From contig JACPUT010000018.1 in NCBI GenBank assembly GCA_016192145.1, positions 248,001 to 312,000 of the forward strand: a stretch of 64,000 nucleotides of DNA, read 5' to 3'. The first letter of the stretch is position 1. Each line of letters opens with the position of its first letter. Below the pieces are notes generated by a model, which was given only the letters and a program-made list of their open reading frames with translations, did no database searches and was not told the DNA's origin. Shown here one piece after another: positions 16,810-64,000 of the stretch. The translations under genes and the position numbers were made by a program. The stretch comes from Acidobacteriota bacterium. GTDB lineage: Bacteria > Acidobacteriota > Holophagae > Holophagales > Holophagaceae.

Positions 16810-16930
16810 CATCACCGTTCATCACTGTTCATCACTGGTTTTCTTTTCTGGCCGCTCTGATGTCGGGCGAAGCGAATAGAGCCCGCCAAATAAAAAAATG
16901 GCCAGTGATGAACAGTGATGAACGGTGATG
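16810..16930. repeat. long hairpin with 29-bp perfect inverted-repeat arms built from a tandem word
   Basis: The left arm 16810-16838 and right arm 16902-16930 are exact reverse complements over 29 bp. Each arm holds two to three tandem copies of a ten-base word (GTTCATCACT on + in the left arm). The spacer continues as an imperfect stem with A/T runs. It lies between the spermidine-synthase-like gene and the oxidoreductase gene, both on the minus strand, and could act as a terminator or RNA-stability element. Confidence 0.9.
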
Positions 16931-62068: not shown

Positions 62069-62147
62069 TAGCCACCTCAAATGGATGGCTTCCTATCGGC
62101 CGGGGCGCCCGTCCATCTTGAGATCCGGCGCCCGGTATCATGGGCGG

Positions 62148-62951
62148 ATGCGGCATTCCTTCTACCTGCGCCTGGCTTACGATGGGACGAATTACCATGG
62201 CTGGCAGATCCAGACGTCACTGCCCACCGTCCAGGGGGAGCTGTGGCGGGCGTTGAGGGTCCTGGATGCGGAGGCTCCCATGCCCCAGGGCACGGGCCGC
62301 ACGGATTCCGGTGTCCACGCCGAGGCTCAGGGCACCGTGGCGAAGGTGGAACGGGAGTGGGACCCCTATCGCCTACTCGCAGCCCTCAACGCCCACCTAC
62401 CACCCGCCATCCGGGTGATGGAGGCCGTGCCGGTGCCCGAGGCCTTCTACCCCCGCCGCCACGCCGTGGCCAAGCGCTACCGGTATCGCCTGGGGATGGG
62501 CCCCACCGCGCACCCGCTGGAGCGCGCTATCCGGTGGCAGCTCTTCCGGAAGGAGCCCCTGGATCAGGAAGCCATGGCCGCCGCCGCCGCAGCGTGGATC
62601 GGAACCCACGACTACAGCGCCTTCCGCCATCAGGAGTGCGAAGCCGAGGACCCCGTGCGGACCATCCACGCCATCCGCCTCGAACCGCACCGCCTGGGCC
62701 TGGACCTGGTCTTCGAAGGCAGCGCCTTCCTCATGCACCAGGTGCGGATCATGAGCGGCAGCCTCGTGCAGGTGGGCAAGGGGAAGATCCTCGTGGCCGA
62801 TGCGCCCCGCATCCTGGCGAACCGGGATCGCACCCAAGCCGGTGAGACGGCCCCCGCCCACGGCCTCTGCATGGAAAAGGTCTGGTACGAGGCCCGCTGG
62901 GGCCTCAACGAGCCGAGCCCCTGGGGGGAGGGAAAGTTGGATCGCGAATAA
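62148..62951 (+). CDS. truA: tRNA pseudouridine(38-40) synthase TruA
   Basis: A 267-aa enzyme. YLRLAYDGTNYHGWQIQTSL, PQGTGRTDSGVHAEAQGTVA (catalytic Asp in GRTDSGVHA), YPRRHAVAKRYRYRL, HDYSAFRHQECEAEDPVRTI and FLMHQVRIMSGSLVQVGKGK cover the family motifs. The ATG at 62148 gives a normal start. The final residues (KLDRE) and the stop codon lie inside a long inverted repeat that begins at 62940, so the repeat has set the C-terminus. Confidence 0.95.
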   Translation: MRHSFYLRLAYDGTNYHGWQIQTSLPTVQGELWRALRVLDAEAPMPQGTGRTDSGVHAEAQGTVAKVEREWDPYRLLAALNAHLPPAIRVMEAVPVPEAFYPRRHAVAKRYRYRLGMGPTAHPLERAIRWQLFRKEPLDQEAMAAAAAAWIGTHDYSAFRHQECEAEDPVRTIHAIRLEPHRLGLDLVFEGSAFLMHQVRIMSGSLVQVGKGKILVADAPRILANRDRTQAGETAPAHGLCMEKVWYEARWGLNEPSPWGEGKLDRE

Positions 62952-63031
62952 CGCGAATGGGGCGAATAAGCGCGAATAAATAGGAGTGTTCCCTATTCGC
63001 GTCATTCGCCCCATTCGCGTTATTCGCGATC
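62940..63031. repeat. 92-bp hairpin with 28-bp perfect arms made of a GCGAATAA word
   Basis: 62940-62967 and 63004-63031 are exact reverse complements (28 bp). The stem continues inward with a one-base bulge to a loop AGTGTT. The left half contains four tandem copies of GCGAATAA or GCGAATGG variants at eight- to ten-base spacing. It lies between convergent truA and recR and includes the truA stop codon. Confidence 0.92.
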
Positions 63032-63036
63032 TGCTT

Positions 63037-63633
63037 TTAGACCGGCCGCCGGCCTTCCAGCGCTCGCCCGAGGGTGAGCTGGTCGGCGTATTCGATGTCG
63101 CTGCCGATGGGGAGGCCCAGGCCGATGCGGGTGGCTTTGATGCCCAGGGGTTCGAGCAGGCGGGCCAGCCAGCTGGCGGTGGCTTCGCCATCGAGGGTGG
63201 GATTGGTGGCGAGGATGACTTCGGTGATGCTGTGGTCTTCCAAGCGGTGGAGCAGTTCCCGGATCCGAAGCTGGTCTGGGCCCAGGCCCCGGAGCGGGGA
63301 AATGAGACCGCCCAGCACGTGGTACCGGCCCTTGAAGGAACTGGCCCGCTCGAAGCTGAGCACGTTGCTGGCTTCGGCCACCACCACGAGGACATGGGGA
63401 TCCCGGTTTGGGTCCTTGCAGATGGGGCAGAGGGGTTGGTCGGTGAAGGCCCCGCACTGACTGCAGAAACCCACCTTGTCCGCGGCGTCCTGGAGGAGGC
63501 GGGCCAGGTTGGCCATGGCCTCCGGCCCCTCCTTGAGGAGGTGCAGGGCCATGCGCTGGGCGCTCTTCTGGCCCACGCCCGGAAGGTGCTGGAGGCTCGC
63601 GACCACCGCCTCCAGGGGGGCGGGCAGCTTCAT
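63037..63633 (-). CDS. recR: recombination protein RecR
   Basis: A 198-aa protein of the RecFOR pathway. N-terminal HhH LQHLPGVGQKSAQRMALHLL, zinc finger CSQCGAFTDQPLCPICKD, Toprim LVVVAEASNVLSFERASSF and the Walker-B-like C-terminus (LGLPIGSDIEYADQLTLGRA). It normally follows ybaB directly. Here a 340-bp inverted-repeat element lies between them, and its left arm ends 5 bp upstream of the recR ATG. No usual SD is visible. Confidence 0.96.
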   Translation of the reverse strand: MKLPAPLEAVVASLQHLPGVGQKSAQRMALHLLKEGPEAMANLARLLQDAADKVGFCSQCGAFTDQPLCPICKDPNRDPHVLVVVAEASNVLSFERASSFKGRYHVLGGLISPLRGLGPDQLRIRELLHRLEDHSITEVILATNPTLDGEATASWLARLLEPLGIKATRIGLGLPIGSDIEYADQLTLGRALEGRRPV

Positions 63634-63637
63634 AGTG

Positions 63638-63977
63638 AAGGGCCTGTAAATGAGTCATCTTGCCTATTGCGAGGGGCGTCGGCGGAGCAATCCAAGGCGG
63701 CCGACCGTAGGTGTATCGGGAATACACGGAGGGAGGTCAACGCAGGTTTGCGACAGCCGCCGACCCTGGCCCGGTTCCCCGGTCCGCTCGGCTGTTCGGC
63801 CGAGCGGAAGAAGGCCCCGGTGGGGCCTTCGATACCGAGAGGGGTTGGCCCCTCTTCGCGCCCCCAGCTGTGTCGGGCCGCTTGCACGATGTCACCGCAT
63901 CGCGCTGCGCGGCTCTCCTTGCTGGATGGCGCGAATAGGGGCCAACAATAGGCAAGCTGACTCATTTACAGGCCCTT
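63638..63977. mobile_element. 340-bp MITE-like element or structured RNA with 32-bp terminal inverted repeats
   Basis: The ends 63638-63669 and 63946-63977 are inverted repeats with 31 of 32 matches. Inside are hairpins at 63711-63727 (6 bp), 63783-63808 (10 bp, loop TGTTCG), 63810-63830 (9 bp, loop GGT) and 63838-63855 (7 bp, loop TTGG). The right arm carries the last three codons and stop of ybaB. This accounts for the only stretch over 300 bp without a recognised gene. A 111-aa minus-strand frame (63630-63965) runs through it without family similarity. No transposase is present. Confidence 0.7.
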
Positions 63978-64000
63978 TAGGCCGGGGAGGTTCATGCCGG
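63966..64000 (-). CDS. YbaB/EbfC nucleoid-associated protein, C-terminal end only
   Basis: Reading in from the window edge on the minus strand gives GMNLPGLKGL and a stop. NLPGL is the usual C-terminus of YbaB/EbfC, and the next gene is recR, matching the common dnaX-ybaB-recR order. The last three codons and the stop lie inside the inverted-repeat element. Only ten residues are visible, so the call depends mainly on position. Confidence 0.6.
   Translation of the reverse strand, partial: GMNLPGLKGL

Follow-up and report, generated by a model that had tools for sequence, protein, structure and literature searches.

The hairpin that closes the truA gene of a Holophagaceae bacterium is likely a non-autonomous derivative of a dispersed element; it has lost or never had the GxxExxY gene that the full-length form carries, and the short words repeated in its arms would be read by the element's own nuclease. 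Here, we describe the anatomy of this hairpin, its dispersal, its gene-bearing twins, the linkage between arm words and protein, and the allelic states found at orthologous junctions. The hairpin lies in a stretch of 64,000 nt (hereafter, the window) within contig C18 of a 3.8-Mb genome of the family Holophagaceae, phylum Acidobacteriota (G000).

The hairpin between truA and recR

A repeat search confirmed the two perfect inverted arms of 28 nt reported in the first-pass annotation (62940-62967 and 63004-63031), which are 100% complementary and separated by a gap of 36 nt. The left arm, GATCGCGAATAACGCGAATGGGGCGAAT, lies on the + strand and contains the words CGCGAAT, CGCGAAT, and GCGAAT; the right arm, assigned to the - strand, is its exact reverse complement. 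The word originally proposed for the array, GCGAATAA, is indeed present three times, but the array is not strictly made of it: the actual core is CGCGAAT, with spacers of 1-4 nt. The inner part and loop (62968-63003, + strand) are devoid of genes and include the fourth word of either side, and base pairing extends into this 36-nt gap. The folding energy is -73.5 kcal/mol on the + strand (z -10.3) and -72.4 on the - strand (z -14.2). A known Rfam RNA was ruled out as the identity of the hairpin, since the best match over the truA-recR hairpin (mir-4847, 22.2 bits, cut-off 100) was below the gathering score. The window contains a second word hairpin at 16810-16930, also real according to the repeat search and of the same design, which is built on the word CATCACTGTT / AACAGTGATG and lies between co-directional genes. 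Ten third-order Markov copies of the window contained no word hairpins, versus the two of the window itself.

The truA gene (62085-62951, + strand), for which relatives were found, ends inside the left arm: its last three codons and its stop (62940-62951), GAT CGC GAA TAA (D-R-E-stop, with the TAA at 62949-62951), are arm sequence. The convergent gene on the - strand (63037-63633), which from its sequence we take to be recR, has its stop at 63037, 5 nt from the right arm. It had been proposed that the element invaded the end of truA and that the C-termini of relatives would be informative. The comparison bore this out: relatives have neither the KLDRE tail nor the word, and none of the Holophagaceae truA genes compared has a ...KLDRE end while lacking the repeat. 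Neither a ...KLDRE end nor a CGCGAAT word after truA was found at any of 34 Holophagaceae truA loci, and the same held for 20 further loci from partly overlapping genomes. Past the conserved W the truA tails are short and variable; the nearest ones in relatives read ...SPWGER[E/D/A]-stop (...SPWGERE, ...GERD, ...GERA), and G000 alone has ...SPWGEGKLDRE. This difference fits the element having landed at the truA 3' end. The exact insertion point can only be inferred, because none of the truA loci compared offered an unoccupied truA-recR site in a close relative. Other word hairpins lie right behind truA at 6/34 loci, three whose 7-nt words are TCTTCAG/CCTCAGT-like (L032, L033, and L039) and three with a ATCCCCTTC-like word (L036, L038, and L042).

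Directly at the recR start, the window also contains an element of ~340 bp with near-perfect terminal inverted repeats (63636-63978). It gave 26 BLAST match rows in the genome, with full or partial relatives at many places, and it thus represents a second repeat family, apparently unrelated to the word hairpins.

Dispersal and association with GxxExxY genes

The truA hairpin gave 31 match rows in G000, corresponding on reading to ~17 distinct places, and its copies fall into two sub-families with distinct outer ends (GGATCGCGAAT... and AACCGCGAAT...). Matches to the pattern CGCGAATRRCGCGAATRR numbered 53 in G000, 26 in G009, 18 in G018, and 11 in G004, with zero matches in many sibling species. 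Across the phylum it was present in 17/297 genomes; the reversed control pattern had a single match. The same hairpin also occurs in a distant family (L143). A looser detector, accepting any word, was applied to the window and 20 other stretches of G000, which together cover 464 kb or about 12% of the genome, and returned 29 hairpins, versus none in one Markov copy. Of these, 26 were judged real and three (L358:4612, L359:11949, and L360:7979) were dropped by eye as coding coincidences. By extrapolation, the whole genome would harbor roughly 200 word hairpins. The 26 hairpins use many different words, and the word of the 16810 hairpin has more copies in the sample (L360, L362, and L366). A longer gene-less type was observed in Geothrix (L279, L282, L283, L288, L289, L294, and L150), with CGCGAAT arms, a CGCCCTTCGGGCG-like arm insert, and an inner part that is frequently GC-rich.

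In one long copy on contig C7 of G000 (L009), the arms enclose a 129-aa ORF, which a profile search assigned to PF13366 (PDDEXK_3, 133 bits) and TIGR04256 (GxxExxY, 136 bits). The GxxExxY gene at C7:381857-382198 is enclosed by GGATCGCGAATGACGCGAATGGGGCGAAT arms and that at C1:19870-20205 by AACCGCGAATGACG arms. In total, G000 has five PF13366 genes, four of them with inverted word arms: GGATCGCGAAT... (L184), AACCGCGAAT... (L183), ACAGGATG... (L182), and GCGGAG... (L217). The fifth has no arms and adjoins a hairpin that is built on the 16810 word and encloses no gene; for this word, gene-bearing twins exist in Geothrix (L161 and L188). Because L009 and L184 are of the GGATC type and L183 is of the AACC type, both CGCGAAT sub-families have a gene-bearing twin in G000. 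The 36-nt gap of the window copy can hold no ORF, and we filed this copy as a derivative rather than a full member because no gene lies between its arms. Some genomes have the word and no GxxExxY gene (in G012, five matches to the pattern and zero genes); such copies must therefore be inert or dependent on another agent.

Annotations of GxxExxY proteins are common among bacteria, and to our knowledge no role is known for them. Over 91 of 92 aligned proteins (one with a stop was left out), four residues are nearly invariant, E22 (1.00), D62 (0.99), E72 (0.99), and K74 (0.98), which is the pattern to be expected of a functional PD-(D/E)XK site. A sequence search for solved structures related to GxxExxY found none, the best E value being 0.26. 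In the published text reached by our literature search, GxxExxY proteins are scarcely named (one mention in passing) and are not tied to word arms; searches on PDDEXK with inverted repeats, Geothrix repeats, Acidobacteria hairpins, and the exact word strings found nothing.

The association between arms and gene extends well beyond G000. We considered 68 Holophagaceae GxxExxY loci, comprising the 30 best loci of as many genomes (one per genome), the five of G000, 16 picked by hand, and 17 of genus g9. An arm score of at least 30 was obtained at 49/68 loci, one of which (L197) has arms that are not word-like; the split is 3/17 in g9 and 46/51 in the rest, and 14 of the 19 armless loci belong to g9. 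In other Acidobacteriota the same score was reached at 21/24 loci (four of 28 were dropped at contig edges), and the remaining three have word arms scoring 26-29. As controls, 0/27 truA loci and 2/311 predicted genes of the G000 sample reached 30. Furthermore, protein identity was correlated with arm similarity among 67 elements (Spearman 0.48), and none of 1,000 permutations was as high (top value 0.15); this test left out L197 and L215, a near-copy of L211. The arms and the gene therefore behave as a unit.

GxxExxY genes were very rare both on plasmids, with eight among 72,556 records, and on viral contigs, which gave two partial matches only. Clear word arms surround three of the eight plasmid genes, all from other phyla, in Bacteroides finegoldii after radA, in Sphingomonas parapaucimobilis between fabD and fabG, and in Bernardetia after an adenine deaminase gene. 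The plasmid genes of Fusobacteria bacterium ZRK30 and Prevotella nigrescens (L376 and L378) have flanking repeats that are apparently direct, not inverted.

Two genomes showed other kinds of multiplication. G070 has seven GxxExxY genes with near-equal scores, a 230-aa frame, and no word arms (L204, L208, L212, L216, L219, L221, and L224), which spread by other means. G065 has ~30 near-identical PF13366 fragments, of which 14, and six of a second type, were fetched (L259-L278). Many of these have lost most of the gene and kept both word arms. The fetched copies sit in a larger repeat, behind the end of what, from its sequence, we assume to be a transposase gene, and the repeat looks like an insertion sequence. 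Since they are carried inside this larger repeat, the fragments are hitch-hikers with internal deletions, and self-amplified miniature copies were ruled out.

A second class of arm-flanked genes emerged for PF05635 (23S_rRNA_IVP, a four-helix bundle). Inverted arms made of contiguous 7-nt words were present at 14/16 testable loci (L319-L344); 20 of the 30 fetched loci had been used, weaker or partial matches being left out, and four of the 20 were dropped at contig edges. The two PF05635 genes of G000 have GGCTGGA and GTCCTTA words, and both words are found again in the sample in hairpins that lack a gene. Tentatively, and with somewhat less than even confidence, we propose that word-repeat hairpins form one selfish-element superfamily. 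The arm word would serve as an address for the small protein that the element itself encodes (spaced 8-10 nt words for GxxExxY, contiguous 7-nt words for the four-helix bundle), the same junction slots would be re-entered with the word swapped, and gene-less copies could make up a large share of the intergenic hairpins of environmental bacteria.

Orthologous junctions and the role of the hairpin

Two orthologous junctions, both selected for the element that G004 carries there, were compared among seven genomes. Site A, a stop-to-ATG junction, precedes a serC-like gene that starts MTHRVINFYAGPAG. It holds a gene-bearing CGCGAAT element in G004 and G018, a gene-less one with the same arms in G009, hairpins of other words in G012 and G036 (CACCAAG) and in G050 (CCACGAAG-type), and it is empty in G006. 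Site B holds CGCGAAT in G004, G012, and G018 and other words in G050 and G036, and is empty in G006 and G009. Both Geothrix sites are co-directional junctions, and in the unoccupied allele the next start codon is found right at the stop or shortly past it. No target-site duplication was evident at either site; in their flank anchors, the alleles share 88-97% identity with G004. At another locus (L298), a complete GCCAAGGC-word hairpin is nested in the loop of a CGCGAAT hairpin. From these states and the dispersal, we infer that the elements move.

These observations are best explained by a model, which we consider likely, in which the full-length form consists of an arm of 6-7 nt words in tandem, a GxxExxY gene of the PD-(D/E)XK superfamily, and a second, inverted arm that is the reverse complement of the first. 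The GxxExxY protein, with its near-invariant D...ExK, would recognize the words and make a cut enabling copying or spread; the element is probably moved or maintained by this nuclease. Gene-less copies would arise by internal deletion, or be mobilized in trans, and retain the arms alone. The intergenic location of the copies probably reflects tolerance, and the window copy would have inserted at the truA 3' end, supplying its stop codon. Several observations count against this model: neither a transposition event nor a target-site duplication was seen, 19 of the 68 Holophagaceae GxxExxY loci lack arms, some genomes have the word and no GxxExxY gene, the G065 copies multiplied within another repeat, and clear arms surround only three of the eight plasmid genes.

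The same junctions could be read differently, with selection acting on the slot and not on the element: any word hairpin would separate or tune two genes, for example through RNase III cutting, and the words would be replaced over time. Indeed, the junction is filled, with differing words, in 6/7 species at site A and in 5/7 at site B, and a comparable stem, that of the Coxiella 23S intervening sequence, is described as excised by RNase III in the text available (PMC4990558). However, both sites were picked for the G004 element, both have empty alleles, the copy number ranges from 0 to 53 among relatives, and the larger sub-family lacks covariation between arms (see below). Thus, we regard selection on the slot as improbable.

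About equally doubtful is that the arms are paired sites for a chromosomal DNA-binding protein, such as an IHF/HU-like global regulator, as proposed in Geobacter metallireducens, for which the available text describes the same architecture in many copies (PMC2700814). What is conserved among copies agrees with binding: in 28 AACC copies the words are kept and the spacers vary (positions 12-17 are constant through copy choice, 22-27 are not so fixed). Nevertheless, paired binding sites leave unexplained the GxxExxY genes between the arms, the word tracking the protein, and the variation among siblings, in which a given slot may be vacant or filled by another word.

The first-pass annotation had suggested that the hairpin may serve as a bidirectional terminator. 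More broadly, a long transcript stem could end or protect both mRNAs as a 3'-end stabilizer. The highly stable fold on either strand, a TTTT run a short way past the right arm, and the flank composition of 29 CGCGAAT copies, in which positions 4-10 from the arms are rich in A before the left arm and in T after the right arm, are in favor of this role. This composition might also reflect a target preference or belong to the element itself. Against the role, the T run does not adjoin the stem, a T run straight after the stem was not present on both strands (+ strand TGCTTTTA, - strand CAACTTTCCC), and a terminator scan returned one terminator-like site versus 1.2 +/- 1.2 in shuffles. Copies also occur within apparent operons, for example beside the serC-like gene, and the two Geothrix slots are co-directional. 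Among the 26 word hairpins, 19 junctions are co-directional, three convergent, and three divergent, with one at a stretch end, versus 219, 53, and 49, respectively, among all junctions of the sample as predicted by a simple script; convergent junctions are thus not enriched (3/26 versus 53/321). As the context is neutral across junction types, the terminator is unlikely as a general role, and the suggestion did not hold up. This copy is nonetheless located between convergent genes, as had been noted.

Selection on an RNA stem should be visible as arms that vary together. In the AACC family (36 copies), the match between arms was 0.713 within copies versus 0.725 between copies, and in 28 AACC copies the match at the second spacer was not above expectation. 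In the GATC family (nine copies, including that of the window), the values were 0.833 and 0.747, a slightly better match within copies, with 173 of 5,000 permutations as high. The set includes a few rows with loosely paired ends (among them L281, L148, and L295) and some rows that are mutual orthologs. Compensatory pairing, sought as support for an RNA stem, was not found in the larger sub-family. On the whole, words that are kept, spacers that vary, and arms that do not covary in the larger sub-family speak for recognition of the word rather than for selection that keeps an RNA stem perfect.

If GxxExxY genes normally lie within word arms, then the protein, its substrate, and the orphan intergenic hairpins would be one testable system, which might include the Geobacter "regulator sites", and the GxxExxY family would gain a testable role from its arm-flanked context. 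For annotators, this calls for caution before naming such hairpins terminators. The truA case also indicates that an element is able to provide a gene's stop codon.

Comparison with known systems

Miniature inverted-repeat transposable elements (MITEs) lack autonomy, have inverted ends, and derive from a full-length relative that carries a gene. The element described here likewise combines gene-less inverted-arm copies with a full-length relative bearing a gene; it differs in that no obvious target duplication was seen at sites A and B, in its word-array ends, and in having no known transposase.

REPINs are short, multicopy, intergenic, non-autonomous hairpins, which apparently need a low-copy enzyme gene, the RAYT (TnpA-REP, PF01797), and have a GTAG or CGTC tetranucleotide tag beside the hairpin. 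The truA-type hairpins are also short, intergenic, multicopy, and apparently tied to a low-copy enzyme gene; however, their arms are made of tandem words, and the candidate enzyme is a PD-(D/E)XK protein located inside the full-length copies. Membership in the REPIN/RAYT system was ruled out, as G000 has no Y1 transposase: PF01797 had no matches in G000, G004, G006, G012, G018, and G050, and elsewhere gave one partial match of 29 bits in G009, five matches in G036, and nine in G113.

In the available text on Geobacter metallireducens, the proposed global regulator binding sites (classes 1-3) include four tandem octanucleotides, three TCTCCGTS[Y] repeats, or five heptanucleotides, paired on opposite strands at variable distance and in multiple copies, with binding by IHF/HU proposed (PMC2700814). 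Tandem words of 7-9 nt, opposite-strand pairing, and high copy number are shared with our hairpins; the words are different, and that text says nothing of an intervening gene.

The intervening sequence of the Coxiella 23S rRNA, which the consulted part of the report calls selfish, has a 28-bp terminal stem that RNase III excises and that encloses an ORF related to PF05635 (PMC4990558). Such 23S intervening sequences with an S23/PF05635 ORF resemble our elements in having a small ORF of unknown function within a stem, and PF05635 genes here lie between word arms. They differ in that the window element is intergenic (truA-recR), has no ORF, and belongs to the word class paired with GxxExxY, and in that the arms of the PF05635 elements consist of contiguous 7-nt words. 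As far as that source describes it, the Coxiella intervening sequence is the nearest described relative of the PF05635 class.
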